In this document: one piece after another, positions 1,697 through 58,680 of the stretch
Layout: every line of letters begins with the position of its first letter
Numbering within the stretch: the stretch's first letter is position 1
From: Nitratifractor salsuginis DSM 16511
Lineage (GTDB): Bacteria > Campylobacterota > Campylobacteria > Campylobacterales > Sulfurovaceae
Assembly: GCF_000186245.1 (NCBI RefSeq)
Contig: NC_014935.1
Location: 2,037,286 to 2,101,285 of the forward strand
Direction of reading: 5' to 3'
Length of the DNA stretch: 64,000 nt
Position numbers and translations under genes: made by a program
Notes under the pieces: model-generated
What the model saw: only the letters and a program-made list of their open reading frames with translations
What the model was told of the DNA's origin: nothing
Databases searched by the model: none

Positions 1697-1735
1697 GGAG
1701 TAACTAGAAACTAGTAACAAGTAACTAGAAATTTT
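1697..1735. repeat. Heptanucleotide array (AGTAACT/AGAAACT type)
   Basis: About five degenerate 7-bp units (GTAACTA, GAAACTA, GTAACAA, GTAACTA, GAAATTT) stand immediately upstream of the promoter of the SspB-like gene. It belongs to the window-wide family of 7-bp-period arrays. Confidence 0.7.
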
Positions 1736-1781
1736 AGTTTCTCCTACTTTGCCAAGTTTCATTCAAAAGAGGAAGCATATA

Positions 1782-1877
1782 TGATAGTTGGGAACTCTTG
1801 GTGGTTTCTCCCCGACGACAGTTTTTCGCCCTTTCTTCTTTGGGTTCGTTTCTCTTCTTCTTTGTGGCGAAACAAAG
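1782..1877. repeat. Dispersed pyrimidine-rich repeat, copy 1 (right end diverged)
   Basis: This segment shares 'CTTTGGGTTCGTTTCTCTTC' and the following 'TTCTTTGTGGCG' with copies at 2695-2785 and 6767-6877. Its left end (AACTCTTGGTGGT) also matches copy 3. The distal AAGAAGAAAGAAAGG arm present in the other copies is lost. It lies in the 392-bp gap between the SspB-like gene and the aminotransferase, which holds no gene. Confidence 0.75.
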
Positions 1878-1887
1878 ATCAAATCAA

Positions 1888-1996
1888 TTAGCAACCGAGT
1901 AATTGAGAATTGAAAATGGAGAATTATGGTTTGAGAAGAATTCAAAGGAAATAGTCTCAAAAAATCTTAGCACGTAGCACATAGCACTTAACACAG
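1888..1996. repeat. Two heptanucleotide arrays (AATTGAG and TAGCACA types)
   Basis: Around 1888-1925 units AATTGAG, AATTGAA, AATGGAG follow each other. Around 1966-1996 the units TAGCACG, TAGCACA, TAGCACT, TAACACA follow. Two different unit sequences sit within 100 bp, and both keep exact 7-bp phase. Confidence 0.7.
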
Positions 1997-2010
1997 CTCT
2001 ATTCTTGAGA

Positions 2011-2048
2011 CTTGAGGGGCGAAGCCCCGTGCTTGCGACTTGCGACTT
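2011..2048 (-). repeat. Stop-proximal GTCGCA/GGGGC-hairpin module, copy 1
   Basis: On the minus strand, the TAA of the aminotransferase is followed at once by AAGTCGCAAGTCGC, then AAGCACGGGGCTTCGCCCC (hairpin GGGGC-TTC-GCCCC, 2028-2016) and TCAAGTC. The same module follows the stops near 20515, 22484 and 56648. Confidence 0.75.
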
Positions 2049-2633
2049 TTAGACAATCTCCCAATCCTCCAAAACCCGAAACCCCATCATCGCATTCATC
2101 ACCGCCAGCGCTTCATACTCCCCGAGACTTGCGCAGGGGATCTCGGCGGGGATCAGCTTCCCCTCCACCAGCAGTCGTGCCCGGGTGGTGCCCTCCAGCA
2201 GAGGACGGGCGGGGGTGAACCAGCGTCCATCCCGGTAGAGGGCCAAATTGGCGATGGTGGTGTCGGTGAGCAGGCCGTCGCGGCAGAGCAGAAGCTCCTC
2301 CGCTTCGGGGTGCGCCGCTTTGAGCGCATCGAAAGAGCTCCGATCAGCATATTTGAAACGGTAATCATCCTGAAACTCCACCGAGGCGAAGCTCTTGGGC
2401 AGACGAAGGGTATAAGGCAGAAGCTCGACCTTCTCTATATATAATGTATAAAGCACCCTCGCCCGCCAGATCCCCTCTCCGGGAAGATCCCCAAGAAAAT
2501 CGGCCAGATCCAGCTCCTCCTCCGCCCCGAAAAGCTCCCGACGGCTCCGGTTGAAGCGGCGGTTGTGCCAGAGAAGGTTCTGAACCTCACCCCCCTCGAT
2601 ACGCAAGGTTTCCAAAAGTAGAGGAGTTTTCAT
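2049..2633 (-). CDS. Aminotransferase class IV family protein (4-amino-4-deoxychorismate-lyase-like)
   Basis: This 194-residue protein has the class IV PLP-enzyme pattern. 'YRFKYADRSSFDAL' contains the probable PLP-binding lysine, and 'EELLLCRDGLLTDTTIANLA' followed by 'PLLEGTTRARLL' is the substrate and cofactor half typical of PabC/BCAT proteins. It is shorter than PabC (about 270 residues) because the N-terminal domain is reduced, as in a group of bacterial proteins annotated only as class IV aminotransferase. A role in p-aminobenzoate/folate synthesis is likely but no pabA or pabB lies beside it. The stop codon abuts a dispersed repeat module. Confidence 0.85.
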   Translation of the reverse strand: MKTPLLLETLRIEGGEVQNLLWHNRRFNRSRRELFGAEEELDLADFLGDLPGEGIWRARVLYTLYIEKVELLPYTLRLPKSFASVEFQDDYRFKYADRSSFDALKAAHPEAEELLLCRDGLLTDTTIANLALYRDGRWFTPARPLLEGTTRARLLVEGKLIPAEIPCASLGEYEALAVMNAMMGFRVLEDWEIV

Positions 2634-2694
2634 ACGCTCAAACCGCTTAACTTAGGCAAACAAAAGCTCCAATCAAATTTGGGGGTATCAATTT

Positions 2695-2785
2695 GACGAC
2701 AGTTCTTCGCCCTTTCTTCTTTCTTTGGGTTCGTTTCTCTTCTTCTTTGTGGCGAAATAAAGAAGAAAGAAAGGAACAAAGAAGC
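2695..2785. repeat. Dispersed pyrimidine-rich repeat, copy 2
   Basis: This copy is near-identical to 6788-6877 over its core. It carries an inverted repeat, TTCTTCTTTG and CAAAGAAGAA-like arms around GTGGCGAAAT, so either strand can fold into a hairpin. It fills the gap between the aminotransferase start and the phosphate-transporter stop (2634-2856), where I see no gene. Confidence 0.8.
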
Positions 2786-2856
2786 AGGAATGGAAGAGAG
2801 GATTTTTACGTAAGAAGTAATTTTGCAAACGACTTTTGGGAACAAGCTCAAAGGGG

Positions 2857-4608: not shown

Positions 4609-5286
4609 ATGGAGCGAAGACCCCTCATTCTCATCATCGAAGACGAAGAGGATATCCTCGAACTGGAGGAGTTTCATCTCCAAAACGCCGGGTTTGAGAC
4701 GATGGGGTTCCTCTCTTCCAGAGGGGTCCGGCAGGCATTGGAAGAGGAAGAGGTAGCCCTGATGGTCGTCGACCGCAACCTCCCCGGCGAAGAGGGGAGC
4801 GAACTGATCGCGGCTCTGCGCCGGGAGGGCTTCGGCCTGCCGGTGATCTTCGTCACCGCCAAAGACCGGGACGAAGATGTGGAAGAGGGCTTTAGGTGCG
4901 GCGGTGACGACTATCTGCGCAAACCCTTCAATATGAACGAGCTGGTCTGGCGGGTCAAAGCCCTGCTGCGCCGCGGCCAAGCCTCGGAGGAGGAGATCCT
5001 CCGCCACCGCGCGTTGAAGATGGATCTGCCGGCACGCCGGATCGAACTGGAGGGGGAGGAGCTGAGCCTCACCCGGCTCGAATTCGAGCTCCTGCGCTAT
5101 TTCCTGGAAAACCCCGGCCGGGTCATCAGCCGCGAAGAGCTCCTCGATGAAGTCTGGGATGATAGCGGGGAGCGCGGAGAGAAAACGGTCAACGTCGCCG
5201 TCAACCGCCTCAAGAAGAAGATCGAACGCGACCCCGAAGCCCCCACCATCGAAGCGGTCAGAGGGGCGGGATACCGTCTATGCTGA
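4609..5286 (+). CDS. OmpR/PhoB-family response regulator
   Basis: This 225-residue protein has an N-terminal receiver domain: acidic cluster 'IIEDEED' at 10-15, phospho-acceptor D55 in 'VVDRNLPGEEG', T83 and K105. From about residue 125 follows a winged-helix DNA-binding domain ('LSLTRLEFELLRYFLENPGR', 'REELLDEVWDD', 'NRLKKKIE...IEAVRGAGYRL'). It overlaps the kinase gene by 7 bp and should be phosphorylated by it. Position opposite a PiT phosphate transporter suggests phosphate-responsive control like PhoB, which is inference; osmotic or metal sensing remains possible. Confidence 0.93.
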   Translation: MERRPLILIIEDEEDILELEEFHLQNAGFETMGFLSSRGVRQALEEEEVALMVVDRNLPGEEGSELIAALRREGFGLPVIFVTAKDRDEDVEEGFRCGGDDYLRKPFNMNELVWRVKALLRRGQASEEEILRHRALKMDLPARRIELEGEELSLTRLEFELLRYFLENPGRVISREELLDEVWDDSGERGEKTVNVAVNRLKKKIERDPEAPTIEAVRGAGYRLC

Positions 5287-6695
5287 AGCTCTCCCAACTC
5301 TTCTTCCGCCGGAGTGCGTTGATCCTGACGGTGACCTTCATCCTGGCGGCGCTTACCGGTTACTACCTCCTGCGGCAAATGGAGATCGACACCCACGCGC
5401 GTATGCTGCGCAACAGCCTGACGATCCTCGAGCAGGAGCTCCAAACCCTCCCTCCCGCGAAGATCCCCGCCACCCTGCGCACCATCCACCAAAAGACCGG
5501 CATCCGCATCACCGTCATCGCCCCCGACGGAAAGGTGCTCTTTGAGAGCAACCGCTCTCCCGTGGGGATGGAGAACCACGCCACCCGCCCCGAGATCCTC
5601 CAGGCCAAAAAATCGGGATGGGGCGAAGCGGTGCGCCACTCGGCCACTCTGGATGAGGACCTCCTCTATATCGCCCACCGGGAGGGCGACTCCTACCTCA
5701 GAACCGCCTACTCCCTGGAGCGCATCCACCGTCAGCTCCTACAGCTCTGGCTCAAAGCCCTGGGCTTTTTCGCCCTGATCCTTCTGCTGATTCTCGCCCT
5801 GAGCCTCCGGCTCAATCGCCGAATCCAGGGCGACAGCGACCGCCTCCGCCGCTCCCTGGAGCAGCTATTGGAAAAAAATTACGACGCCGAGATCGATACG
5901 GTCGAGTGCTGCAAAGAGTTCGCCCAGATCCGCAAGATGCTCCGGAAGGTCTCCAAAAAATTGGCGAAACGGGAGCGCCAAAAGGCCAAATACACCAAAA
6001 AACTCAAAACCCTCACCCGGCGCCAGAGCGACATCATCTCCGCCATCAGCCACGAATTCAAAAACCCCGTCGCCGCCATTATGGGCTACGCCCAGACCCT
6101 CCGGGAGAGCCGAAACCTCGATCCCCAGATCCGGGAGCGTTTTTTGGAGAAGATCCACAGCAACGCCGAGAAGATTTCGGCGATGATCGACCGCCTATCC
6201 CTCGCCATCCGCCTGGAGAACCGGGGCTTCACCCCCAAGCGCAACCGTTTCCCCCTCTCTCAAGTCATCAGCTCCGTGCGGGAGACCCTGCTGCAGAAAT
6301 ACCCGGGCCGGGAGATTGTTTTGGAGTGTGAACCCGTCGAGCTGGAAGCCGACCGGGATATGATCGAGCAGGCGGTAATGAACCTGATAGAAAATGCCCT
6401 GAAATACTCCGCTGACAAGGTGATCGTCCGCTGTGATGCCGAAAAACTGGAGGTGATCGACCGGGGAGAAGGGATCGAGCCTGGAGACCTGGAAAAGATC
6501 ACCAAAAAATTCTACCGCGTCGACCGCCTCAGCTGGAACAACTCCATCGGCGTAGGCCTCTACATCGTCAAATACATCCTCCGCCTCCACGGAACGGAGC
6601 TCGAAATACGCAGCGTCCCCGGAGAGGGGTCGGTCTTTGGGTTTTCACTGCGGGGGATGAAAGAGAGGAATGAGAAACTAGAAACTAGAAACTAG
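5280..6695 (+). CDS. Membrane sensor histidine kinase (PhoR-like)
   Basis: 471 residues. Two membrane spans (about 11-31 and 158-176) bracket a 125-residue periplasmic sensor region. A linker with coiled-coil character follows, then the dimerisation box with H258 in 'AISHEFKNPVAAIMGYA', N-box 'MNLIENALKYS' (367-377), G1 'DRGEGIEPGD' (394-403) and G2 'IGVGLYIVKYILRLHG'. It is the partner of the regulator it overlaps. The final residues (NEKLETRN) and the TAG stop are read from a 7-bp array (AGAAACT repeated), so the native C-terminus has probably been replaced by repeat DNA. An intrinsic terminator follows. Confidence 0.93.
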   Translation: MLKLSQLFFRRSALILTVTFILAALTGYYLLRQMEIDTHARMLRNSLTILEQELQTLPPAKIPATLRTIHQKTGIRITVIAPDGKVLFESNRSPVGMENHATRPEILQAKKSGWGEAVRHSATLDEDLLYIAHREGDSYLRTAYSLERIHRQLLQLWLKALGFFALILLLILALSLRLNRRIQGDSDRLRRSLEQLLEKNYDAEIDTVECCKEFAQIRKMLRKVSKKLAKRERQKAKYTKKLKTLTRRQSDIISAISHEFKNPVAAIMGYAQTLRESRNLDPQIRERFLEKIHSNAEKISAMIDRLSLAIRLENRGFTPKRNRFPLSQVISSVRETLLQKYPGREIVLECEPVELEADRDMIEQAVMNLIENALKYSADKVIVRCDAEKLEVIDRGEGIEPGDLEKITKKFYRVDRLSWNNSIGVGLYIVKYILRLHGTELEIRSVPGEGSVFGFSLRGMKERNEKLETRN

Positions 6696-6700
6696 AAATT
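6671..6700. repeat. Heptanucleotide array (AGAAACT) at the 3' end of the kinase gene
   Basis: Units AGAAACT, AGAAACT, AGAAACT, AGAAATT run in exact 7-bp phase through the last codons and stop codon of the kinase gene. Confidence 0.8.
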
Positions 6701-6707: not shown

Positions 6708-6731
6708 GCGTTGCTTTGCAACGCTTTTTTT
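6708..6731 (+). terminator. Intrinsic terminator, GCGTTGC module copy 1
   Basis: Perfect stem GCGTTGC / GCAACGC with TTT loop followed by seven T, 13 bp after the kinase stop. The same stem occurs at 20671-20694, 22640-22663 and 29475-29496, each after a gene end. Confidence 0.85.
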
Positions 6732-6902: not shown

Positions 6903-7916
6903 CTAATGCCGGCATCGCAGCGCTTCGGCATAGAGCGCGATCGTCACTCCGTAACGTTTCGACGCATTGTAAAGGGTAATGATCCGATAGTTCCGGTCTC
7001 CCAGGAAAAGATCCCACTTCCTGCCGTCACGCAGGCGGAGATAGTAGGCACTCTTCCCCCCGAAGAGCTCGGCGGGAGTGACACCGTAGCGGCGGAGGGT
7101 CGCCAGGGGGTAGAGGCTACGGTAACCGCTGCGAAGGCGCAAGAACCCCTCTCCCCTGTGTCGGGCGCGCACCAGCGTCTTCCGGTTGTTTTTCCATCCG
7201 TTTCGGTGCAAAAAGTTGGCAATCGTTCCGATACAGTCGGCGATAGAGTCGGGATCTTTTCGCCCGTCTCCGTCGAGATCCACTCCGTAGCGCAGCTGAA
7301 TGGAAGGGACCTGCTGCGCACACCCCATCGCCCCGGCGAAGGAACCCCGCAGTTTCAGGGGATCGAGCCGGTTCTTTCGAGCCAGGATCAGCAGCTTCTC
7401 CAACTCTCCCCTGAAAAACTTCTGCTTACGGTTGGGGTTGAAGGCCAAGGTCACCAGTGAATCCCAGACCGGATATTCGTGGCCGTAGCGCCCGAACTTG
7501 CTCTCCACCCGGATAAAAGCGGTGATGATCTTGGGAGCGACCCTATAGCGCCGGGAAGCGAGCGAAAGCCAACGGCGGTAGCGTGACATAAATTTGACAC
7601 CGAGCCTGACACTTTCGTCAACCAGGATCCTGCTTTTGTAACGGTGCCAACTGTAATCGGTAGCCCCCACCTTGTGCCGCCCCCGGTAACGGGCCAGCGT
7701 TTCGGCCTGATGCCGGGCCCGCTTCAACAGCCCAAGAAGTTCCCCTTCGTCAAAGCCGTAACGCTGATGCATCCTCTCAGCAAAAGCACGCGCCGCCGGC
7801 AGACGGGAGTAGTCGATCCGGGCCGGGGAAGGCAAGGTGAACAGCAAGAGCAGAAGCAGAGAAAAGGGAAAAAAGTGGGTAGTCCGTAGTGGGTAGTGGG
7901 TAGATTTTTTCATCAT
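6903..7916 (-). CDS. mltB: Lytic murein transglycosylase, MltB/SLT_2 family
   Basis: 337 residues. The catalytic glutamate lies in 'TAFIRVESKFGRYG' and is followed by the family stretch 'GSFAGAMGCAQQVPSIQLRY' and 'GVDLDGDGRKDPDS', as in MltB. It cleaves glycan strands of peptidoglycan in the periplasm, releasing 1,6-anhydro ends. The N-terminus is a signal peptide with a Leu-rich core (SLLLLLLFTLPSPA) but no lipobox, so it is soluble or membrane-anchored by the signal. The n-region (THYPLRTTHF) is encoded by a 7-bp array and no good ribosome site precedes the double ATG. An unusual start codon cannot be excluded. Confidence 0.9.
   Translation of the reverse strand: MMKKSTHYPLRTTHFFPFSLLLLLLFTLPSPARIDYSRLPAARAFAERMHQRYGFDEGELLGLLKRARHQAETLARYRGRHKVGATDYSWHRYKSRILVDESVRLGVKFMSRYRRWLSLASRRYRVAPKIITAFIRVESKFGRYGHEYPVWDSLVTLAFNPNRKQKFFRGELEKLLILARKNRLDPLKLRGSFAGAMGCAQQVPSIQLRYGVDLDGDGRKDPDSIADCIGTIANFLHRNGWKNNRKTLVRARHRGEGFLRLRSGYRSLYPLATLRRYGVTPAELFGGKSAYYLRLRDGRKWDLFLGDRNYRIITLYNASKRYGVTIALYAEALRCRH
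7877..7905. repeat. Heptanucleotide array (GTAGTGG type) inside the mltB signal-peptide codons
   Basis: On the plus strand units GTGGGTA, GTCCGTA, GTGGGTA, GTGGGTA repeat in 7-bp phase. They lie within codons 4-13 of the MltB frame. Confidence 0.75.
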
Positions 7917-7918: not shown

Positions 7919-8012
7919 AAAAGTCGCAAGTCGCAAGATTTTTGGAATATTAGTCATTTGAGATTGTTCAGGAAGATTCTCAATCCAAAATCTAAAATCC
8001 AAAATTCTCAAT
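7919..8012. repeat. Heptanucleotide arrays (AGTCGCA and AATCCAA types)
   Basis: 7919-7937 holds AGTCGCA AGTCGCA AG directly upstream of mltB. 7978-8012 holds TCAATCC AAAATCT AAAATCC AAAATTC TCAATCC. These fill most of the aroC-mltB gap. Confidence 0.7.
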
Positions 8013-8013: not shown

Positions 8014-8043
8014 CGAAGGTTTACAGCTCGCTGTAAACCTTCG
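8014..8043 (-). terminator. Perfect 14-bp inverted repeat spanning the aroC stop codon
   Basis: Arms 8014-8027 and 8030-8043 are perfectly complementary with a 2-nt loop. The last aroC codons (KVYSEL) and TAA (8023-8021) lie inside it. On the minus strand the following sequence is AT-rich (GATTGAGAATTTTGG), so it probably acts as a terminator. The downstream arm is an exact inverted copy of the coding end. Confidence 0.75.
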
Positions 8044-9100
8044 TCAGGTGTTCCATCCTGCTTCCCATATTGAGCAGGGCCATATCGGCCAGGGTCAGGG
8101 CCATCATCGCTTCGCAGACGATGACCCCCCGGATGGCGACGCAGGGATCGTGGCGGCCTTTGAGCTTGTAGCGGATGCTCTCCCCTTCGGTGGTGAGGCT
8201 CTGCTGCTCTTTGAAGATGCTGGGGGTGGGCTTGAACCATGTGGTGACGTAGATCTCGTCGCCGTTGCTGATGCCGCCCAGGATCCCGCCGCTGTTGTTG
8301 CTCCCGAAGCCCTCCGGGGTAATCGGATCGTTGTTCTCGCTCCCCTTCATCCGTGCGGCGGCGGCCCCTACGCCGACCTCCACCGCTTTGGCGGCGTTGA
8401 TCCCCATCATCGCCTCGGCCAGGATCGCGTCGAGTTTGTAATAGAGGGGCTCGCCAAGGCCCGCCGGAACTCCCACGGCCCGGGTCAGCACAGCCCCGCC
8501 GACGGAATCGTGGGCCTCTTTGGCCGCCAAGACCGCTGCCTCCTGCGCCTTCTCCGCCTCGGGGTCGAGGGCGTTGAGGGGGCTCTTTTTGGCGTGCTCA
8601 AAATCGCAGCGTTTCGCTTCAATCCCGTCGATCTCCACGATCCCCGCTTCCACGGTGATTCCCAACTCCCTGAGCATCAGCTTGGCCACGGCCCCCGCCG
8701 CAACCCGCGCCGCCGTCTCCCGGGCGCTGGAGCGTCCCCCGCCCCGGTAATCCCGGATCCCGTATTTGGTCCAGTAGGTGTAGTCAGCGTGGCCGGGGCG
8801 GAAGAGCTTTTTGACATTCTCGTAATCCCGGCTCTTCTGATCGGTGTTGAAGATCACCATCGCGATGGGGGTGCCGGTGGATTTCCCTTCGAAGACCCCC
8901 GAGAGGATCTCTACCCGGTCGGGCTCTTTGCGGCCGGTAGTCAGGGCGCTCTGCCCAGGACGGCGGCGGTCCAGCTCACTCTGGATAAAGGCTTCGTCGA
9001 TGGCCAGACCCGCCGGCACGCCGTCGAGCACACAGCCGATCGCTTTGCCATGGGATTCTCCGAAGGTGGTCAGTCTCAGTTTCCGTCCGAAGGTGTTCAT
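8021..9100 (-). CDS. aroC: Chorismate synthase
   Basis: 359 residues, full length. It starts [20 protein letters not shown], the first AroC signature. It continues with '[20 protein letters not shown]', '[14 protein letters not shown]', '[20 protein letters not shown]' and the C-terminal '[20 protein letters not shown]'. It converts 5-enolpyruvylshikimate-3-phosphate to chorismate using reduced FMN, the last step of the shikimate pathway. The ATG overlaps the rnc stop by 4 bp (ATGA) with AAGGAG upstream, so it is translationally coupled in the rnhA-rnc-aroC operon. The stop lies within a palindrome. Confidence 0.97.
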
Positions 9101-11235: not shown

Positions 11236-11323
11236 CGTACCTCTTTTTTGAAAGATATTATATCCGGTCTCTTGAAACCGAGCAACCGAGAAATGAGTAA
11301 CCAGTAATTTTTATCCACCGCCC

Positions 11324-11400
11324 CAACGACCAACGACCAACGACCAACGACCAACGACCAACGACCAACGACCAACGACCAATACACCAATACACCAATG
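11324..11400. repeat. Heptanucleotide array, 8 x CAACGAC
   Basis: Eight perfect CAACGAC units (11324-11379), followed by CAATACAC twice and CAATGCC. It is the longest perfect array here and lies directly upstream of the dnaG -10 element. Confidence 0.9.
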
Positions 11401-14194: not shown

Positions 14195-14395
14195 TTCCCC
14201 AATTTATCCCAATCCTAAGCAACTCAGCAACCTGCCAAAAAATGGCTCATTAAGGCCCATCTCTCTACTTTTTCTATCCCTACTGGCTCAGGCCAATTTC
14301 ACGTAAATCAAAAAATTTTAGGGGTAACTTTTAGGGTAACTTCTATCAATCAGGCCAAAAACAATTCTCCATTTTCCATTCTCAATTCTCAATTA
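14195..14395. other. Gene-free tRNA flank with short repeats
   Basis: About 200 bp with no credible gene. It contains a 12-bp-period direct repeat (GGGGTAACTTTTA, GGGTAACTTCTAT at 14321-14345) and at 14369-14398 a 7-bp array of ATTCTCA type. No integrase or attachment duplication is visible. Confidence 0.5.
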
Positions 14396-14794
14396 CTATT
14401 CCCATCCATCATTCTTCACCCGTTCCCGATGCTTCGCTTTGCGGTAACTGCTGCGGTTCTTCATCTTTTGGAGGCGGTTGAGATTACTCATCTCCGCTTC
14501 ACGCATCCCGTCCAATTCCCGATCGTCGAAATCTTTCCGGTCGATCCGCCGGAAAAAGCTCCGGTAATGATTTTCACTCTCCCGCAGATATTCGCTGTCG
14601 AGGCGGATCTGATCCAGCTCGTCGAGGCGTTGCATCAGCTCGGTGAATCGCTGCCGGAATTTCAAAGCGCTGGTATCGGGATGGCGGAGGAGGCGGAAAA
14701 GATTCTTGCCGATCTTTTCCAGGTGGGCGATGTATTTTTGGCGTTGGTACTTTTCGATCTGTTTGGGGGTGTAACGTCTGCTTTGGGAGCTCAT
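14396..14794 (-). CDS. Hypothetical charged, helical protein
   Basis: 132 residues, very rich in Arg, Lys, Glu and Asp, predicted mostly helical ('KQIEKYQRQKYIAHLEKIGK', 'MQRLDELDQIRLDSEYLRES'), with no membrane segment, signal peptide or recognised motif. Its ATG overlaps the stop of the upstream L,D-transpeptidase lipoprotein gene by 4 bp, so the two are probably co-translated. It may be a cytoplasmic protein with a role related to the envelope, but this is only context. I do not recognise the family. Confidence 0.7.
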   Translation of the reverse strand: MSSQSRRYTPKQIEKYQRQKYIAHLEKIGKNLFRLLRHPDTSALKFRQRFTELMQRLDELDQIRLDSEYLRESENHYRSFFRRIDRKDFDDRELDGMREAEMSNLNRLQKMKNRSSYRKAKHRERVKNDGWE

Positions 14795-20271: not shown

Positions 20272-20515
20272 AAAAGAGGAATTGAGCTACCCCCGCCAAT
20301 GGGGCTTCAAGATCATCGGACGGGACAAAGAGAAGCTCGCCGCCGCCGTCAAAGAGGTCCTGGGCCACAAAGAGCACCTCTCCTCCCCCGGCAACGCATC
20401 GCGCACCGGCAAATTCCACAGCCACAACGCCAGCTGCCACGTCGAGAGCAAAGAGGAGCGCGACAAACTCTTCAAAGCGTTCCAGGACCACGAGGATGTG
20501 GATATGGTAATTTAG
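20246..20515 (+). CDS. DUF493 (YbeD-like) family protein
   Basis: 89 residues from a GTG start at 20246, with AGGAGG 5 bp upstream and inside the 3' end of moaC. The sequence '[20 protein letters not shown]' and '[20 protein letters not shown]' fits the DUF493 fold, a small ferredoxin-like cytoplasmic protein of unclear role, fused to or near lipoate genes in some bacteria. Its TAG stop is followed immediately by a GTCGCA/GGGGC repeat module. Confidence 0.85.
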
Positions 20516-20714
20516 TCGCAAGTCGCGGGCACGGGGCTTCGCCCCTCAAGTCTCAGGTGAATTGGTCACTGGTCATTAGTCATTGGTCATTGGGGATTAT
20601 TAAAAGCCATTAAAGGCGATTAGGGGATAGAATAGCCATTGCTGATTTCTCGAGTCTCGACATTCAATTCAAAAAAGGCGTTGCTAAGCAACGCGAACCT
20701 CAATTCCTAATTCC
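20516..20714. repeat. Composite intergenic repeat between convergent genes, copy 1
   Basis: Almost the whole 199-bp gap matches 22485-22697. It starts right after the TAG with GTCGCAAGTCGCGGGCAC, a GGGGC-TTC-GCCCC hairpin (20533-20545), a TGGTCAT-type heptad array, an AAAGCCATTAAAGGCGATTA segment, the GCGTTGC hairpin, and a CTCACTC heptad array that runs into the PqiA stop. No gene is present. Confidence 0.85.
20671..20694 (-). terminator. Intrinsic terminator, GCGTTGC module copy 2
   Basis: On the minus strand GCGTTGC-TTA-GCAACGC is followed by C and six T. It lies about 20 bp beyond the stop of the PqiA-like gene. Confidence 0.85.
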
Positions 20715-21545
20715 TCACTCCTCACTCCTCACTCCCTCAAGCATTTTCTCCGCCGCCAGACTGGCCGCCAGGGAGAGGATCACATAGGCGAGGAAAAAGT
20801 AGATCCCGATCTCCGCTTCGGCCCGGCTGACATCGGTGCCCCGGGAGGTCAGAAAGACCAGCAGCAGCGCCACGACGAAGACATCGAGCATCGACCATTT
20901 GCCCAGATGTTTGAAAAAACGCACCATCTTCGCGGCGAAAGGGCGGGTTTCATAGAGAGAGACGAAGAGCAGGGAGAGGGTCTTGAGCGCGGGGAGCAGC
21001 ACCGAAAAAAGCAGAATCACCCCGGCGATGGGCCAATTGCCCTCGTGAAAAAGCTTCGCCACCGAACCCAGGATCCCTTTGGATTCGAAGGAGAGCACCA
21101 CATCCCCCAGATACTCTACGTTTTTGTGGACCGTCACCATCAAAATAGGAGTGATCAGGCCGTTGATGAGGGCGATAAGGGCGGCAACGGAGAGTAGGCC
21201 CGTTGCCAGGCGGATCGGCAGGAAAAAGGCGCTCACGAGGGCGGACAATGCCGTACCGGCGAACCAAAGGACAATGCGCCGAGCCTTTTGCCGGGCTTGT
21301 TCTTGCTGGGCCTCGAGGCGTTGGAGCTTTTCTCGTAGATCGTTTTTTACCATCCCGAAGGTCAGCGTGCTGGCCAAATCCTTGAGCCGTGACTGGGCCA
21401 CCTGCTCCGCCTCCATCATTTTGGCGCTCTCGGCGGAGGCCTGTTCATAGGCGATCGCTGCGCGATACCCCTCTTTGCCCAGCCAGGCCATCGTCACCAC
21501 CAGAGCCGCTGTCCAGATCAATCCCAAAATCGTTTGCCATTTCAT
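20715..21545 (-). CDS. PqiA-family membrane protein (paraquat-inducible protein A-like)
   Basis: 276 residues. An N-terminal span, a coiled-coil segment of about 60 residues (EAEQVAQSRLKDLASTLTFG onward), then the PqiA domain with 'FESKGILGSVAKLFHEGNWP', 'VLLPALKTLSLLFVSL' and 'FKHLGKWSMLDVFVVALLLV', and about five membrane spans in all. PqiA/YebS proteins work with MCE proteins in lipid transfer between envelope membranes; no MCE gene is adjacent. The coiled-coil insertion is unusual. The last residues (VRSEE) and TGA are read from a GAGTGAG heptad array. Confidence 0.85.
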   Translation of the reverse strand: MKWQTILGLIWTAALVVTMAWLGKEGYRAAIAYEQASAESAKMMEAEQVAQSRLKDLASTLTFGMVKNDLREKLQRLEAQQEQARQKARRIVLWFAGTALSALVSAFFLPIRLATGLLSVAALIALINGLITPILMVTVHKNVEYLGDVVLSFESKGILGSVAKLFHEGNWPIAGVILLFSVLLPALKTLSLLFVSLYETRPFAAKMVRFFKHLGKWSMLDVFVVALLLVFLTSRGTDVSRAEAEIGIYFFLAYVILSLAASLAAEKMLEGVRSEE

Positions 21546-21701: not shown

Positions 21702-22484
21702 ATGTCTGATATTAAATTGTTGAAGCTAATTGCGCGGGAAGCGGGGGAAATTGTCCGCCGGGGGTATCATTCCCACAAAGAGATCCATCACAAAGGGGTG
21801 GTGGACCTGGTAACCCAGTATGACGTCGAAACGGAGCGTTTCCTGCTCGATGCTCTGAGCGAAGCCTTCCCCGACCATACCCTGGTGGGAGAAGAGAGCT
21901 ATACAGGTAGCTGGGATCTGGAGCGGGCGATCTACATCGATCCGATCGACGGCACCACCAACTTCGTCCACGGCATCCCCCACCTGGCTGTCTCCCTGGG
22001 AGTTTGGGAAGGGGGCGAAGCGACAATGGCCGTGGTTTACAACCCCATCCTCGACGAACTTTATTGGGCCGAAAGGGGCCGGGGGGCCTGGCTGGGAGAG
22101 GAGCAGCTCAGGGTCTCCGAGGACCAGACATTGCAAAATGCCCTGATCGCCACCGGCTTTCCCTACGCCAAGGTCAATCGGGGAGCGGAGTATCGCTGGG
22201 TGGTCGACGCCATTGCCGAAATCCTCCCCCGGATCCAGGACCTACGCCGCCTGGGCTCCGCCGCCTGCGATCTGAGCTATCTAGCCCGGGGGATCTTCGC
22301 CGCTTTTTACGAAATCAATCTCAAACCCTGGGATGTCGCGGCGGGAATTTTATTGGTCCAAGAGGCCGGAGGGAGAGTCAGCAACCTGGCAGGAGAGCCC
22401 TACCGCTTCGGCGACAGGGGGATCGTCACCGGTACCCCGGCGATTCACCGGGCATTGTTGGAAGCTCTACCGCCTTATATATAG
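21702..22484 (+). CDS. suhB: Inositol monophosphatase family protein (SuhB-like)
   Basis: 260 residues with the complete IMPase metal site: 'LVGEES' (61-66), 'YIDPIDGTTNFVHGIP' (78-93) and 'LKPWDVAAGILLVQEAGGRV' near the C-terminus. It dephosphorylates inositol-1-phosphate or related sugar phosphates with Mg2+; in enterobacteria the homologue SuhB also affects rRNA transcription. The precise substrate is not shown. The stop codon TAG is followed at once by a GTCGCA repeat module. Confidence 0.92.
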   Translation: MSDIKLLKLIAREAGEIVRRGYHSHKEIHHKGVVDLVTQYDVETERFLLDALSEAFPDHTLVGEESYTGSWDLERAIYIDPIDGTTNFVHGIPHLAVSLGVWEGGEATMAVVYNPILDELYWAERGRGAWLGEEQLRVSEDQTLQNALIATGFPYAKVNRGAEYRWVVDAIAEILPRIQDLRRLGSAACDLSYLARGIFAAFYEINLKPWDVAAGILLVQEAGGRVSNLAGEPYRFGDRGIVTGTPAIHRALLEALPPYI

Positions 22485-22697
22485 TCGCACGTCGCAGGCA
22501 CGGGGCTTCGCCCCTCAAGTCGCAAGTAATTGGTCACTGGTCATTAGTCATTGGTCATTTGGGATTATTAAAAGCCATTAAAGGCGATTAGGGGATATGA
22601 ATAGCTATTGCTGATTTCTCGAGTCTCGACAATCAATTCAAAAAAGGCGTTGCCGAGCAACGCAAACCTCAATTCCTAATTCCTAACTCCTAACTCC
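22485..22697. repeat. Composite intergenic repeat between convergent genes, copy 2
   Basis: Near-duplicate of 20516-20714, in the same orientation and again between convergent genes (IMPase and GlnRS). The order is the same: GTCGCA units, GGGGC hairpin (22502-22514), TGGTCAT heptads, the AAAGCCATTAAAGGCGATTA segment, GCGTTGC hairpin, and a TAACTCC heptad array. Confidence 0.85.
22640..22663 (-). terminator. Intrinsic terminator, GCGTTGC module copy 3
   Basis: On the minus strand GCGTTGC-TCG-GCAACGC is followed by C and six T, 35 bp beyond the GlnRS stop. Confidence 0.85.
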
Positions 22698-24974
22698 TCA
22701 CTCTCCTGAAAGCTTCCGCTTTAGGAGCTCATTGACTACCCTCGGATTGGCTTTGCCCCCAGTAGCCTTGAGCACTTGCCCAACGAAGAAACCGAAGAGC
22801 CGTTCATTGCCCGCGCGGTATTTCTCCACATTCTCCGGATTGGCGGCGATCACCTCATCGACGATGGGGGCGATCTGATTCGGGTCGCTGATCTGGCGGA
22901 GCCCCCGCTCCTCCACATAGGCCAGAGGGTCCACCCCTTCTCTCTCCATCGCTTCGAAGACCTCTTTGGCGATCTTGCTGGAGATCTCCTCCGCTTCGAT
23001 CATCCCCGCCAATTGGGCGATCTGCTGCGGAGTGAAGCGCAAGGTCTCCACACCTTGCTCCTTGATCGCTTTGGAGACTTCGTTGGCCACCAGGTTGGCC
23101 AGGGTAGAGAGGGCCTCAGTCTCCTCCATCGCCCGCTCGAAGAAGACTGAAAGGGCCTCGTCCCTGGCCAGGATCTCCGCCACAGTGGTCCCCAGGCCCA
23201 ATTCACCCGTGTAACGCTCGAAACGTACCTGCTGCTCGGCGTTCATCGGCGTGACTTCTCCCTCTTTTTGGGGGACTTTGCTCTGCTCTTTCTTCGCCGG
23301 TTTTTGCTCTTTCGCAGCCGGCTTCTTTTGGCTCTTTTTGGCCCAGGAGTCTTTGAGGGGAACGATCCGGTTGAAGACGGGATGCCCCTCCTCGGACGCC
23401 ACCGGATCGAGATAGAAATACCCCTCCCGCTCGAACTGGAAGCGCTCGTCGGGCTTTTCGGCCAGGACGGAGGGCTCGATCAGTGCCTCGGGGATGATCT
23501 TCAGCGAATCGGGGTTGAGGTCTTCGGGCCCCTGGGGATTTTCGACTCTAAAGAGCCGGTCATAGAGCCGCACCTCCACCCGGTCGGCCCGCTTGGCCTC
23601 CACCCACTGGATGGCGCTTTTGACTTTGATGCCGCTGGTATCGCTGCCGCTTCGGGAGTCGGGGTAGTACTCGGCCCGAATCTCTATAATCTCACCCTCC
23701 TCATCCTTGATTACTTCTTTGCAGCGGATGATGTAGGCGTGTTTGAGCCGCACCGGCTGATCGGGGGTGAGGCGGTAGTAGCCCTTGGGGGGATTCTCTT
23801 CGAAGTCGCTTCGATCGATGTATATCTCCCGGGAAAAGGGGAGCTTGCGGCTGCCTTCTTTGGGCACATCGTGGGGGTAGTAGGATGCGTCGATCTCTTC
23901 GGAACCCTCATAATTCTCGATAACCACCTTCAGCGGGTTCAGCACGCACATCACCCGCGGGACCTTGGGGTTGAGGTCGTCCCGGATGGCGAACTCCAGC
24001 AAAGAGACATCCACCACGGAGTTGGCCTTGGCCACCCCGATCATTTCGCAGAAATTGACGATGGATTCGGGGGTGTATCCCCGACGGCGGTATCCGGCGA
24101 TCGTGGGCATACGGGGATCGTCCCAGCCCTCCACCGCTCCCTTTTCCACCAGCTCTCTGAGCTTGCGCTTGCTCATCACGGTATAGTTCATATTGAGCCG
24201 GGCGAACTCGTACTGATGGGGGCGGGGCGGTTTGACCTGCAGGGTATCGAGAATCCAGTCGTAGACTTCCCGGTTGTTCTCGAACTCCAGGGTGCAGAAG
24301 GAGTGGGTGATCCCTTCGATGTAGTCGGAGAGACAGTGGGCGAAGTCATACATCGGATAGATATGCCACGTCTCCCCCGTCCGGTAGTGGGGAGTGTGGC
24401 GGATGCGGTAGAGCAGCGGATCGCGCATCTTCATATTGGGCGAAGCCATATCGATCCTGGCCCGGAGCACGTGGGCCCCCTCGGGGAATTCCCCTTTGCG
24501 CATCCGCTCGAAAAGCTCCAGGTTCTCCTCCACACTGCGCTCGGCATAGACACTGCGCCGCCCGGGCTCGGTCACGGTCCCCCTGTATTCGCGGATCTCC
24601 TCTTCGTTCAGGCTGTCGACGTAGGCTTTGCCCATCCTGATCAGCTCCACAGCATAGTCGTAGAGTCGCCCGAAGTAGTCGGAAGTGAAATAGAAATGCT
24701 CTCCCCAGTCGAAACCCAGCCACTTGACGGCATCTTTGATCGCCTCGACGTAGCGCATCTCCTCCGTCTCGGGGTTGGTATCATCCATCCGCAGATGGCA
24801 GCGCCCGTTGTAATCCCGCGCGATGCCGAAGTTGAGCACGATCGATTTGGCGTGCCCGATATGGGGAAAGCCATTGGGCTCGGGAGGAAAACGGGTGACG
24901 ACCTCTTTGTATTTCCCCTCCGCCAGATCACGTTCTACAATCGCACGCAGAAAATCTTTTCTCTTTTCACTCAT
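22698..24974 (-). CDS. glnS: Glutaminyl-tRNA synthetase with C-terminal YqeY/GatB-tail domain
   Basis: 758 residues. The class I core has 'RFPPEPNGFPHIGHAKSI' (HIGH motif), 'LRMDDTNPE', 'FCTLEFENNREVYDW' (GlnRS type), and 'NYTVMSKRKLREL' (KMSKS loop), followed by the anticodon beta-barrels. A Lys/Gln-rich linker (about 546-576) joins a 182-residue tail ending in 'NPENVEKYRAGNERLFGFFVGQ' and 'VLKATGGKANPRVVNELLKRKL', the GatB/YqeY tail that helps bind tRNA, as in the Deinococcus enzyme. It charges tRNA-Gln directly. Well-studied Campylobacterota make Gln-tRNA through GatCAB, so this may be acquired. The TGA is embedded in a heptad array. Confidence 0.95.
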   Translation of the reverse strand: MSEKRKDFLRAIVERDLAEGKYKEVVTRFPPEPNGFPHIGHAKSIVLNFGIARDYNGRCHLRMDDTNPETEEMRYVEAIKDAVKWLGFDWGEHFYFTSDYFGRLYDYAVELIRMGKAYVDSLNEEEIREYRGTVTEPGRRSVYAERSVEENLELFERMRKGEFPEGAHVLRARIDMASPNMKMRDPLLYRIRHTPHYRTGETWHIYPMYDFAHCLSDYIEGITHSFCTLEFENNREVYDWILDTLQVKPPRPHQYEFARLNMNYTVMSKRKLRELVEKGAVEGWDDPRMPTIAGYRRRGYTPESIVNFCEMIGVAKANSVVDVSLLEFAIRDDLNPKVPRVMCVLNPLKVVIENYEGSEEIDASYYPHDVPKEGSRKLPFSREIYIDRSDFEENPPKGYYRLTPDQPVRLKHAYIIRCKEVIKDEEGEIIEIRAEYYPDSRSGSDTSGIKVKSAIQWVEAKRADRVEVRLYDRLFRVENPQGPEDLNPDSLKIIPEALIEPSVLAEKPDERFQFEREGYFYLDPVASEEGHPVFNRIVPLKDSWAKKSQKKPAAKEQKPAKKEQSKVPQKEGEVTPMNAEQQVRFERYTGELGLGTTVAEILARDEALSVFFERAMEETEALSTLANLVANEVSKAIKEQGVETLRFTPQQIAQLAGMIEAEEISSKIAKEVFEAMEREGVDPLAYVEERGLRQISDPNQIAPIVDEVIAANPENVEKYRAGNERLFGFFVGQVLKATGGKANPRVVNELLKRKLSGE

Positions 24975-54820: not shown

Positions 54821-55135
54821 CTACCCGTTGAGCTTCCTTCCCAACTTGGCTTCGACGGAGGCTTTTTTCTTCTGCAGCCGACCTACCGGCCCTTTGCGAT
54901 AGTCGATCTTGAGCACGCTGTAGATGCGGTTGCAATCGGATTCCAATTCGGCATGAGCTTTTTCGATCAGGGTAAAAATCTCGCTGACCGTTTCGGCTTC
55001 GATGATGGTCCCCATAGGTGTGAGCTGATAGGGCAAACCGCTGCGATCGACGAGATCGAGGACCCGCGCCACAAAGGCGCTCTTGGATTCGGTCTGGTCG
55101 GTGGGGAACATAGCAAATTCGACGAGGGCGGACAT
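54821..55135 (-). CDS. MTH1187/YkoF-family thiamine-binding protein
   Basis: 104 residues from ATG 55135 with AAAGGAG upstream. 'SALVEFAMFPTDQTESKSAF', 'YQLTPMGTIIEAETVSEIFT' and 'CNRIYSVLKIDYRKGPVGRL' fit the DUF77 fold, a small tetrameric ferredoxin-like protein that binds thiamine. Its role in the cell is not established. It is divergent from the BaiN-like gene. Confidence 0.88.
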   Translation of the reverse strand: MSALVEFAMFPTDQTESKSAFVARVLDLVDRSGLPYQLTPMGTIIEAETVSEIFTLIEKAHAELESDCNRIYSVLKIDYRKGPVGRLQKKKASVEAKLGRKLNG

Positions 55136-55207
55136 CAAGGCTCCTTTGGAAATGTCGGATTTTGGATGATGGATGATGAATCGGACGTTATAATGCCATA
55201 TGCGAAC

Positions 55208-55250
55208 AAAAAACGAAAAATTCCTCACTCCTCACTTCTCACTCCTCACT
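55208..55250. repeat. Heptanucleotide array (CTCACTC) in the leader of the BaiN-like gene
   Basis: Units TTCCTCA, CTCCTCA, CTTCTCA, CTCCTCA, CTTCGAC in 7-bp phase lie between a TATAAT (55189-55194) and the ATG at 55271. The frame is open through it, so an alternative start at 55193 would place the array in the protein. Confidence 0.75.
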
Positions 55251-55270
55251 TCGACATCGGGCAATACCCG

Positions 55271-56482
55271 ATGCTGATCGTTGGTGCCGGTGCCGCGGGC
55301 TTGGCGGCAGCCATCACGGCGGCAAGAAGAGGGATGCAAGTTACCCTGCTGGAGCAGAACAAAGAACCGGGCAAAAAGATCCTGGTCAGCGGCAACGGCC
55401 GCTGCAACATTGCCAACCACCATCCCGAGCCCCATCGTTTTCATTCCAACGATCCCGATTTTCTTCGCAAAGCCCTCAAAGGATTCGATGCTGAACGTAT
55501 CTCCGGCTTTTTGCAGAGCCTGGGGCTCGAAGTGGAAGAGGAAGAGGAGGGCAAACTCTTTCCGATGGGACGCCAGGCTGCCAGTGTCGTCAAGCTCTTG
55601 ACAAGGGAATGTCAACGTCTGGGTGTGAAGCTTGTCACCGATTGTCACGTAGAAGAGATCATCAAAGAAAAAGAGGGCTTCCTCATAAAAAGCAGCTGCG
55701 GAATTTTTCGGGATATCTCCCTGCTCCTGGCCGGGGGAGCGCCCGCCGCACCCCAGCTGGGCGGCAGCAACAGAGGAATGCTTATGGCTCAGAGTCTGGG
55801 CCACAGACTCATCCCGCCCCGTCCGGCCCTGGTGGCGCTGGAGAGCGAAGAGGCTTGGCCCAAAAAGGCGGCGGGGGTCAAAGTCCGTGCCAGAGTCAGA
55901 CTGGCGGCATCGGGACAGACGGTCAAAGAGAAGGATGGCGATCTGCTTTTTACCGATTACGGGGTAAGCGGTTTGGCGGTTTTGGATCTGAGCCGGGAGG
56001 CGAGCCTGAGACTGGCAGAATGGGAACCCTGTGACCTGCTTATCGACCTCCTGCCCCAATGGAGTAAAGAGCGCTTGACAGCATTCTTGACAAAGCGTAT
56101 CGATCCCCATCGCCGGCTCCCGATCGATCTTTGGCTGGAAGGGGTACTGCATCGCAAACTGGTACCGATCATCCTGGAGAAAAGCGGCCTCAAACTCTCC
56201 GACGAATCACAACTCAACCGCAAAAGCATCGGCCGACTCGTCTATGCCGTCAAAAACCTCAAGCTTGCCGTTACTCAGACCCGGGATTTCCGCTACGCCG
56301 AAGTGGCGACCGGAGGCATCGACGTCACTCAGGTCGATCCGGAGACGATGGAATCCCGACTCGTTCCCGGACTCTATTTCGCCGGCGAAATCCTCAACGT
56401 GGACGGGGATCGGGGCGGCTTCAACTTCCACTGGGCGTGGACGAGCGGGATCAGAGCGGGAATATCAATTGATGATGGATGA
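55271..56482 (+). CDS. BaiN/HI0933-family flavoprotein
   Basis: 403 residues from ATG 55271. FAD motif 'LIVGAGAAGLAAAITAARRG', the family block 'GKKILVSGNGRCNIAN', 'LFPMGRQAASVVKLL', 'LLLAGGAPAAPQLGGSNRGM' and C-terminal 'GLYFAGEILNVDGDRGGFNF' and 'WAWTSGIRAG'. Related BaiN enzymes reduce 3-oxo-delta4 bile acids; the role in most bacteria is unknown. No ribosome site is seen; an ATCGGG/CCCGAT inverted repeat abuts the start. The last residues (DDG) and TGA come from a TGATGGA heptad array. Confidence 0.9.
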   Translation: MLIVGAGAAGLAAAITAARRGMQVTLLEQNKEPGKKILVSGNGRCNIANHHPEPHRFHSNDPDFLRKALKGFDAERISGFLQSLGLEVEEEEEGKLFPMGRQAASVVKLLTRECQRLGVKLVTDCHVEEIIKEKEGFLIKSSCGIFRDISLLLAGGAPAAPQLGGSNRGMLMAQSLGHRLIPPRPALVALESEEAWPKKAAGVKVRARVRLAASGQTVKEKDGDLLFTDYGVSGLAVLDLSREASLRLAEWEPCDLLIDLLPQWSKERLTAFLTKRIDPHRRLPIDLWLEGVLHRKLVPIILEKSGLKLSDESQLNRKSIGRLVYAVKNLKLAVTQTRDFRYAEVATGGIDVTQVDPETMESRLVPGLYFAGEILNVDGDRGGFNFHWAWTSGIRAGISIDDG

Positions 56483-56647
56483 TGGATGATGGAAGATTAT
56501 GGATTATGGATTGCTGAGAGATCAGAAATGGTTGTCCTTCTTCTTTAATCGCCTTTAATGACCCCAATGACCAATGCCTAATGACCAGTGACTAAAACAC
56601 TTGCGACTTGAGGGCCGCAGACCCGTGCTTGCGACGTGCGACTAAAG
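56463..56647. repeat. Heptad arrays and decayed GTCGCA/GGGGC module (typA 3' gap)
   Basis: 56468-56500 carries ATGATGG units. 56550-56600 carries AATGACC, AATGCCT, AATGACC, AGTGACT. 56602-56647 is a decayed copy of the stop-proximal module (GTCGCACGTCGCAAGCACGG on the minus strand, hairpin reduced to GGG/CCC). The segment 'CATTAAAGGCGATTA', seen in both composite repeats, also recurs here in inverse form. No gene is present. Confidence 0.75.
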
Positions 56648-58471
56648 TCAGCTCTGCGCCGCGGCTTTCTTATCCCGGGCGGCCCGGCGGCGGGCGGCGG
56701 AATCGAGATACTTTTTGCGGATGCGGATGTTTTCGGGGGTTACTTCGACCAATTCGTCATCTTCGATCCACTCCATCGCCTGCTCCAGGGTCATTTTGCG
56801 GGGCGGGACCAGCTTGATGGCGTCGTCGGCACCGCTGGTGCGCATGTTGGTCAATTGTTTCCCTTTGAGGGGATTGACTTCCAAGTCACCGGGACGGGCG
56901 CTCTCTCCAATCACCATTCCATTATACACCTTCGCCTGAGGCTCGATAAAGAGGGTACCACGGGCCTGAAGGTTGAAGAGGCTGAAGGCGACTGCGACAC
57001 CGTTGTCCATAGAGACCAGCGCTCCCTGGGTTCGGCTCTCGACGCTGCCGGTATAGGGGCGGTACTCCAGGAAGGAGTGGTTCATGACCCCTTCACCTTT
57101 GGTATCGGTGAGGAATTCGCTGCGAAAGCCGATGAGGCCCCGGGCGGGAATCTCGAATTCGATCCGGACCGTGCCGTCGGGCATCGGGGTCATGGAGCTC
57201 ATCTCGGCTTTGCGTTTACCCAGCTTTTCGATGACCGTTCCCTGATGCTCTTCGGGGACATCGATGACCAGATGCTCGAAAGGCTCCATGCGAACCCCGT
57301 TCTCCTCTTTGATGACGACTTCGGGACGGGCCATGAGAAACTCGAAGCCTTCCCGGCGCATATTTTCGGCGAGAATGCCGATCTGCAGCTCTCCCCGTCC
57401 GGAGACTTTGAAGCTGGCATCCCCCAGGGGCTCCATCTTCATCGCGATATTGGTCTCCATCTCTTTTTCGAGGCGCTCGCGGATCTTGTTGGAGGTGACG
57501 TGTTTGCCCTCGGTACCCGCCAGCGGGCCGTCGTTGACACTGAAGATGACTGAAAGGGTCGGCTCTTCGATGTGCAGAGGATCGAGAGGCTGAGGATTGG
57601 CGGAATCGGCGATCGTATCTCCGACGTCGATGTCGTTGAATCCGGCGATGGCGACGATATCGCCCGCTTCCGCCTCGTCGATTTCGACACGATCCAACCC
57701 GCGGAAACCGATGAGCTTGCTTACGCGGCTCTTGGTCTTTTCTCCGTCGGCTTTGAGGAGCGTATACTCGTCACCCTTTTTGATCCGACCGTTGAAGATC
57801 CGGCTGATCCCGATCCGCCCGACGAAATTGTCGTAGTCAAGCGTAAAGACCTGCGCCTGGGTCGAAGCGTCGGCTGATCCTTCGGGATAGGGGACGTGCT
57901 CGATGATCGCTTCAAACAGGGGCGTGAGATCTTTGTTCTCATCTTCAAGATTCCATTTGGCATAGCCGTCGCGGGCGGCGGCATAAAGCACCGGGAACTC
58001 CAGCTGTTCGTCATTGGCATCCAATGCCACGAGCAGGTCGAAGACCTCATCGACCACCCGCTCGGGCTCGGCGGCGGGCTTGTCGATCTTGTTGACGACA
58101 ACGATAGGCTTGAGGCCCAGTTCGATCGCTTTTTTGAGGACGAATTTTGTCTGGGGCATGACCCCCTCCTGGGCATCCACCAGCAGCAGAACGCCGTCGA
58201 CCATCTTGAGCACCCGCTCCACTTCGCCGCCGAAGTCGGCGTGGCCCGGGGTGTCGATGATGTTGATCTTGTGATCTCCGTAGGTGATGGCGGTGTTTTT
58301 GGAGAGGATGGTGATCCCCCGCTCTTTTTCGATGTCGTTGTTGTCCATCACCCGCTCGTCCACTTCCTGGTGGGCGGCAAAGGTCCCGGATTGCTGAAGC
58401 AATCCGTCAACCAGAGTTGTCTTGCCGTGGTCGACGTGCGCAATAACGGCGATGTTCTTGATTTTTTGCAT
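56648..58471 (-). CDS. typA: Translational GTPase TypA/BipA
   Basis: 607 residues. G1 '[17 protein letters not shown]', switch '[15 protein letters not shown]', G3 '[20 protein letters not shown]', G4 'VNKIDKP', and C-terminal TypA block '[20 protein letters not shown]'. A ribosome-binding GTPase for 50S assembly and stress or cold growth. Confidence 0.97.
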
Positions 58472-58647
58472 TCTTGTTCCTATCGTAAAGTGCGCGCATT
58501 ATATCGAAATCGTCGCGGGCCATTGGTCGTGGATCGTTGAAGGCCCATATTATCGTAATGAGAGCCAATTTGGACTACAAAAGAAAATTGCAGGCGGAAT
58601 CATTCTGAATGTATTCGGAAATTCCATCGGCATTTGTTAGGATGATC

Positions 58648-58680
58648 CCAACGACTAAGGACCAATGGCCAACGACTACA
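58648..58680. repeat. Heptanucleotide array (AACGACT type) at the dgt stop
   Basis: Units AACGACT, AAGGACC, AATGGCC, AACGACT lead up to and include the dgt stop codon (minus-strand TAG at 58678-58676). Confidence 0.7.

Follow-up and report, generated by a model that had tools for sequence, protein, structure and literature searches.

Heptanucleotide arrays at gene borders of Nitratifractor salsuginis keep their geometry but not their unit sequence

What holds a short tandem array at one period and one length while the repeated word itself changes? The question is raised by a 64,000-nucleotide stretch of the Nitratifractor salsuginis DSM 16511 genome (contig NC_014935.1, positions 2,037,286 to 2,101,285; hereafter the window), for which a preliminary description made from its letters had reported many intergenic arrays with a strict 7-bp period and differing units. 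We found that these arrays keep their geometry and not their sequence. With reservations, we favor a reading in which they are the spacers, about 31 bp long, of small non-coding elements that resemble repetitive extragenic palindromic (REP) sequences, and sit at gene borders, often as inverted pairs; the arrays themselves would likely be rewritten as whole units are gained and lost.

We sampled the window and 40 further stretches of 20 kb each, together 864 kb or 41% of the N. salsuginis genome, and searched them with our own lag scan, whose cut-offs (a score of 11-12, gap fractions of 0.35/0.65 and stems of at least 6 bp) were chosen by the analyst. At a score of at least 12, lag 7 gave 97 intergenic segments and 21 in called coding sequence. 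Intergenic and coding counts were 0 and 0 for each of lags 1-5, 0 and 3 for lag 6, and 11 and 4 for lag 8, bearing out the excess over periods 5, 6 and 8 that the preliminary description implied; the harmonics of 7 gave 60 and 13 (lag 14) and 16 and 10 (lag 21). In gaps of the first 464 kb, lag-7 runs of at least 12 matches numbered 30, compared to 0.2 after order-2 Markov resampling of these gaps, and two relatives gave lag-7 counts of 59 and 5 (G001) and 47 and 2 (G009). Once segments of score at least 9 were masked, no lag-7 excess was found in the remaining gap DNA. The arrays are therefore discrete, and a general 7-periodicity of gap DNA was ruled out. Lag 8 was the sole other short period with an intergenic excess; it includes a minor 8-bp cousin of the heptad arrays, of CAACCGAG/CCGAGTAA type, at 11290-11320 of the window and in two other N. 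salsuginis stretches (L129 7780-7900 and L134 4130-4155).

The density of lag-7 segments was about 24-fold higher between genes (0.69 per kb) than in called genes (0.029 per kb), and this part of the claim that the arrays are intergenic stood. The claim needed amending in that some arrays lie inside coding bodies, in folC and in an E2-like ORF (open reading frame). Since our own gene caller misplaced at least one start (54953), arrays counted as coding are over-counted. The in-ORF arrays encode heptapeptide repeats such as MEDGRWK, LLTPHSS and NEELGMR (L170 1800-2900 of G001; L129 7517-9001).

An array consists of about four copies of one 7-base word, with a length mode near 31 bp. Among 435 arrays from four species, 299 measured 27-35 bp, 85 were shorter, 36 measured 36-45 bp and 15 were longer. 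Perfect gap runs formed two groups, one of 8-13 matches and the other of 18-27. Two runs fell at 14-15 and no run at 16-17, a distribution unlike a decay from short to long. Long arrays were rare, with examples of 8.6, 15.1 and 27.6 copies in the N. salsuginis sample. The sequence TTTTTATCC(A/G)C(C/T)GC precedes all three of the longest sampled arrays (window 11310-11323, L132 near 13290 and L134 4187-4200).

The units, read on whichever strand has an excess of G over C, differed from place to place as described, but they were not arbitrary. They formed 52 rotation classes in 258 arrays from three species, and their 1806 letters comprised 681 G, 564 A, 486 T and 75 C; 196 of the 258 arrays had units without any C. 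The commonest classes were AATGAGG (29 arrays), AGGAGTG (28), ATTTTGG (23) and AAGATGG (17). When an array held two unit types, the variants were blocked in 14 of 21 cases (6.3 expected). We rejected the idea that the units carry stop codons in three frames, as a stop occurred on the inward strand in 162 of 258 units, compared to 169 in letter shuffles. One proposal for heptamers of Xanthomonas and Nostoc is that four units supply the four G-tracts of a G-quadruplex (PMC4692102; this and the other papers given here by PMC number are cited from the accessible parts of their text). The four-unit mode, the orientation described below, which equals that of the published repeats (PMC4692102), and a two-G-tract pattern in 159 of 435 arrays would suit such an origin. 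However, a G3 pattern fitted only 5 of the 435 arrays, and frequent units such as AACTAGT and AATTGAG contain no GG, leaving quadruplexes an extremely improbable explanation.

The arrays share an orientation. In four species, the G-rich, C-poor strand ran from the gene border into the gap in 180 of the 189 arrays on the stop side and 103 of the 113 on the start side, a count that leaves aside 70 mid-gap arrays and 14 ties. In sense terms, arrays are purine-rich after stops and pyrimidine-rich before starts. Start-side units read inward matched the stop-side palette in 61 of 69 cases, compared to 16 of 69 on the other strand, and thus the symmetry belongs to the DNA and not to the sense RNA. 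Neighboring arrays less than 200 bp apart mostly faced inward (RY 61, RR 21, YY 13, YR 3 and three with a tie). Among gaps of 60-600 bp, arrays were present in 158 of 604 codirectional, 40 of 114 convergent and 16 of 190 divergent gaps.

Many arrays are flanked by stem-loops. We searched 405 arrays from four species for perfect stems of at least 6 bp, reading inward from the gene border and seeking the outer stem over at most 25 bp. An outer stem was present in 122 arrays (5 in shuffled flanks); most of these lay flush with the array or close to it, 52 of them exactly flush. An inner stem was present in 141 (6 in shuffled flanks), lying 6-10 bp away in 93. By species, in one order throughout, inner stems numbered 29/129, 56/144, 36/82 and 20/50 and outer stems 30/129, 50/144, 23/82 and 19/50. 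Where both were present, they lay a median of 41 bp apart, and 41 of these 49 distances were between 36 and 47 bp. The full module, a flush outer stem-loop followed by the array, about 8 bp and the inner hairpin, was thus shown for a part of the arrays only. The inner stem often reads GCGTTGC-N3-GCAACGC, and a T-run came after 45 of 131 inner stems.

One arm of the outer stem is often the gene edge itself. The start codon was covered by perfect inverted repeats of at least 10 bp at 20 of 92 array-side starts versus 1 of 748 starts of array-free gaps, and the stop at 10 of 165 array-side stops versus 5 of 552. Among arms of at least 9 bp, the arm met the array within -5 to +3 nt in 32 of 38. 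The start-side arm was missing from the orthologue in 26 of 26 comparisons, while the stop-side arm was present in 3 of 17; in the seven comparisons of start sites with array-free orthologues, two of which had less than 40% protein identity and two of which shared one orthologue, the arm was missing in all seven. In several orthologues, the arms differed in step with the coding sequence, a covariation that fits either selection on the hairpin or copying.

These stems allow for a role in RNA. Pyrimidine-rich arrays before starts, together with a stem-loop that holds the Shine-Dalgarno sequence or start, could form ribosome standby or S1 sites, and purine-rich arrays after stops could act on the 3′ end. 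The orientation in sense terms, the inverted repeats over starts, the covarying arms and the T-runs are all in line with this, and binding of S1, Csp or Csr proteins has been suggested for the TAACTGA repeats of marine Beggiatoaceae (PMC4679880). We nevertheless consider RNA devices unlikely: start and stop palettes are mutual reverse complements in sense terms, arrays that flank the same gene or gap do not match each other, units are not conserved across species, and arrays also occur within folC and the E2-like ORF. The arrays and their stems could also be scars of end repair, in which 3′ ends at a break snap back into a stem-loop with the gene edge, receive G-rich heptads in a telomere-like manner and are then rejoined. 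The G-rich strand is indeed the one that would be the 3′ end growing into the gap, long arms abut the array and are missing from array-free orthologues, and the units at the two ends of a gap are independent. Yet to our knowledge no enzyme adds diverse heptads, the reverse transcriptase domain PF00078 was not found in N. salsuginis or in the eight other hairpin-bearing genomes of the genus that were searched, and the conserved inner hairpins are left unexplained. We regard such scars as very unlikely.

In the window, our scan found 15 segments. Tandem Repeats Finder (TRF) gave rows at the array positions named in the preliminary description or no more than about 20 bases from them, except at 58648, where the reported AACGACC array had no TRF row and only a degenerate run could be read. 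The arrays and stem-loops are as follows, with the strand where one was assigned.

1702-1731: degenerate heptad array, AACTAGT type
1968-1995: degenerate heptad array TAGCACA/TAGCACG, about 4 copies, found by TRF and our scan
2032-2048: period-7 TRF row
6673-6698, plus: heptad array AGAAACT, 3.7 copies, overlapping the 3′ end of a histidine kinase ORF (5280-6695)
6708-6724: inner hairpin GCGTTGC-TTT-GCAACGC followed by a T-run
7874-7903, plus: heptad array GTGGGTA/AGTGGGT, 4.3 copies, G-rich on plus
7921-7937: period-7 TRF row
7982-8005, minus: heptad array AATCCAA, 3.4 copies, G-rich on minus, partner of 7874-7903
8014-8043: outer stem-loop (13-bp arms, CTCG loop) across the stop of the chorismate synthase gene (8021-9100, minus)
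11323-11382, minus: CCAACGA, 8.6 perfect copies, longer than any other array of the window, in the gap between a TPR-repeat ORF and dnaG
14364-14394, minus: heptad array ATTCTCC, 4.4 copies, on the stop side of ORF 14396-14794 (minus)
20563-20593 (TRF 20561-20593), plus: heptad array TGGTCAT, 4.4 copies, G-rich on plus
20678-20694: inner hairpin GCGTTGC-TAA-GCAACGC
20702-20735 (TRF 20712-20735), minus: heptad array CACTCCT, 4.9 copies, over the stop of a PqiA-domain gene
22531-22559 (TRF 22529-22559), plus: heptad array TGGTCAT, 4.1 copies, in the near copy of the 20.5-kb gap
22647-22663: inner hairpin GCGTTGC-CGA-GCAACGC
22671-22703, minus: heptad array AACTCCT/CACTCCT, 4.7 copies, at the stop of a tRNA-synthetase (E/Q) and GatB_Yqey gene
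30859-30888, minus: heptad array CCCAATG, 4.3 copies, shortly ahead of the stop side of an MFS gene (30896-32350, minus)
55222-55252 (TRF 55222-55250), minus: heptad array TCCTCAC, 4.1 copies, upstream of an HI0933-like gene
55255-55273: start-side stem-loop CATCGGG-CAATA-CCCGATG, its 3′ arm containing ATG 55271
56471-56512, plus: heptad array that passes from GATGATG to GATTATG, at the HI0933-like gene's stop
56564-56592, minus: degenerate heptad array CCAATGA, 4.1 copies, TRF only and below our scan threshold

The gaps 20500-20760 and 22470-22730, 2 kb apart, are near copies almost throughout and end at arrays; between the arrays at 20702-20735 and 22671-22703, whole units have been replaced with nearly equal length. 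The arms of the chorismate synthase stem-loop differ in relatives in step with their coding sequence. Since the HI0933-like Pfam domain starts at residue 107 of ORF 54953-56482, the true start is likely ATG 55271, just past the array and stem-loop, and this longest ORF begins too early.

We compared orthologous gaps with those of draft genomes of relatives. Between N. salsuginis and G001 (approximately 82% protein identity; 232 gaps), arrays occurred in both at 19 gaps, in only one or only the other at 15 and 14, and in neither at 184; for G001 and G007 (94.7% protein identity; 90 gaps), the corresponding numbers were 10, 2, 6 and 72. The window's longest array, at 11323-11382, was not present in the same gap of G001 and G009. 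Arrays in an orthologous gap often had different units in different species, and in FolC, arrays lie at two matching places in N. salsuginis and G001, in frame but with different units. Few arrays could be compared for whole-unit changes in copy number, and the result comes from one gap, in which G001 and G007 differ by a clean +7 bp in one array and a clean -7 bp in another. The preliminary description had called period 7 constant while the unit changes, and this holds both between places and between relatives, among which unit, copy number and presence all vary.

The arrays could instead be ordinary heptanucleotide microsatellites, with a DNA polymerase slipping by 7 nt wherever selection permits and with hairpins and orientation as by-products of gene-border sequence. 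We view this as possible, if doubtful. The exact 7-bp changes, the three long arrays and long single-family arrays in the relative G008 speak for it, as do the over-representation of heptamers in many bacteria and a polymerase-contact hypothesis (PMC4692102). Microsatellites do not, however, predict a four-unit length mode with few perfect 3-unit arrays, or inward orientation with stems flush with the array; nor is there a lag-7 excess in gap DNA outside the arrays, though the mask takes every segment of score at least 9.

The inner hairpin and the arrays extend beyond N. salsuginis. GCGTTGC-N-GCAACGC occurred 35 times in N. salsuginis, 11-60 times in each of eight genus mates and not at all in four genus members (G003, G004, G008 and G012); three genomes of another genus had 22, 40 and 4 copies, and seven more genomes 1-2. 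Three tandem copies of AATGAGG were present in 21 of the 120 family genomes, from five genera, with none of the reversed control in each. In a survey of dnaG loci, 80 of 248 were kept, and six held a lag-7 segment: L039-L043, all from close relatives, and L101, from a more distant member of the Campylobacterales. R..Y arrays were also present in G027, which belongs to another genus. With L101, the five genera and G027, the proposal of a trait restricted to a single clade is too strong. G008 instead carries long arrays of GGCATTG/TTATTGG type at contig ends; its contigs L217, L218, L220, L221 and L222 end in long arrays of a single unit family, which suggests that assemblies break there.

We also looked for a factor acting in trans. 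The Y1 transposase domain PF01797 was present in G000, G001, G009 and G011 and was not found in G002, G005, G006, G007 and G010, several of which are incomplete drafts; it was also present in the hairpin-free G003 and G008. Seven matches in the N. salsuginis genome had one common score. Neither a Y1 transposase of the RAYT (REP-associated tyrosine transposase) type, nor DinB (PF00817), nor a reverse transcriptase tracks the trait, and we rejected all three. A transposase-bearing insertion apparently lies within a heptad array of N. salsuginis (L201 1330-2985).

How might spacers of REP-like elements come to look like this? We propose that whole 7-bp units are gained and lost, which would let the unit drift but preserve period and length. 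Gain and loss would occur by replication slippage, perhaps where polymerase stalls on the stem-loops; units would drift near neutrally through concerted evolution; the spacing of the stems would hold the array length; and the elements would move or copy themselves, coming and going at gene borders.

Several observations weigh against this proposal. Both stems were present in only 49 of 405 arrays, most having none or one, and stem spacing was only weakly tighter than chance, as 52 of 2000 shuffles were equally tight. The inner-stem counts of G007 are biased, since 16 of its 20 stretches came from contigs picked for holding the hairpin. Ten start-side and nine stop-side arrays have the opposite orientation, and the array at 1702-1731, C-rich on the plus strand by letter count and hence outward, contradicts the rule within the window. 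R and Y units of one gap were unrelated (3.92 versus 4.06 for shuffled partners), indicating that the ends of an element are not matching terminal repeats at present; we rejected unit pairing both within a gap and between the two arrays flanking one gene, where likeness did not exceed that of shuffled pairs. A similarity among RR or YY arrays mixes strands and was given no weight. Seven alignments revealed no clear target-site duplication or precise empty site, and in them gain could not be told from loss. Across the relatives compared for Y1, DinB and reverse transcriptase, no mobilizing gene was linked to the trait.

Several known systems resemble these elements. REP sequences and BIMEs (bacterial interspersed mosaic elements) are short intergenic palindromes, often in inverted pairs. 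Like them, Nitratifractor has a conserved, small, dispersed palindrome in its gaps, GCGTTGC-N-GCAACGC, and inverted pairs; unlike them, its elements contain heptad spacers and the Y1 domain, which is of REP type, does not track the trait. Unlike elements with inverted terminal repeats, such as MITEs (miniature inverted-repeat transposable elements), the array ends have no matching terminal repeats, their units being no closer than shuffled ones. In cyanobacteria, the heptanucleotide short tandemly repeated repetitive sequences occur as several units per genome, tandem and intergenic, and the Nitratifractor arrays resemble these by description only.

The closest published match we found consists of the intergenic heptamers GGGAATC of Xanthomonas and GGGGA(C/T)T of Nostoc (PMC4692102). 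The Xanthomonas repeats form convergent pairs (70 in Xcc and 75 in Xac), are scarce between divergent genes and vary in length and sequence among related species (PMC4692102). The Nitratifractor arrays share with the Xanthomonas and Nostoc repeats the four-unit mode and the G-rich strand pointing from the ORF into the gap. They differ in having 52 unit classes, rarely with a G3 pattern, instead of one unit type with G3 tracts, and the accessible text of PMC4692102 describes for those repeats neither an outer stem-loop flush with the array nor an inner hairpin some 8 bp away. A megablast search for GGGGATT repeats in plasmids gave no match. The TAACTGA direct repeats of Beggiatoaceae occur in two to six copies, mostly intergenic with few in ORFs (PMC4679880); they differ in being one unit, mostly upstream of starts in one direction, with related heptamers rarely repeated. 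Heptads with equal mode, place and orientation elsewhere appear in PMC4692102, PMC4679880, PMC4060949, PMC3733652, PMC6749651 and PMC9879509. As PMC4692102 also cites heptads in cyanobacteria, among them three Calothrix heptanucleotides, period 7 as such is not new. We found no paper on Nitratifractor heptamers in the open-licence library searched, and the accessible text of the genome paper (PMC3156401) does not contain the word "tandem."

The kinship with heptanucleotide repeats of other bacteria that the preliminary description had drawn is upheld by tandem 7-bp units in excess, their mostly intergenic location and whole-unit changes in copy number, and its interpretation as a whole is partly supported. 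Not contained in it were the size class of 27-35 bp, the inward-pointing G-rich strand, the inverted pairs, the stem-loops beside the arrays and the presence of arrays inside genes.

A bolder view, which we hold to be speculative and rather improbable, is that these are mobile, protein-free spacers that conserve geometry alone: a flush hairpin that inversely copies the edge of the target gene, about 31 bp of C-poor heptads and a second hairpin about 41 bp on. If this is true, the Xanthomonas and Nostoc heptamers would be the identical geometry with one frozen unit, and heptad repeats throughout bacteria would form a single class of elements that place a copy of their target next to themselves. 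The published preference for four units has been linked to quadruplexes of one G-rich unit (PMC4692102). In Nitratifractor, length, place and orientation are equal across more than 50 unit classes, most of which are unable to form a G3 quadruplex. This uncouples geometry from sequence. It also allows the views based on slippage, quadruplexes and RNA to be tested in a single genus that offers hundreds of loci as natural replicates.

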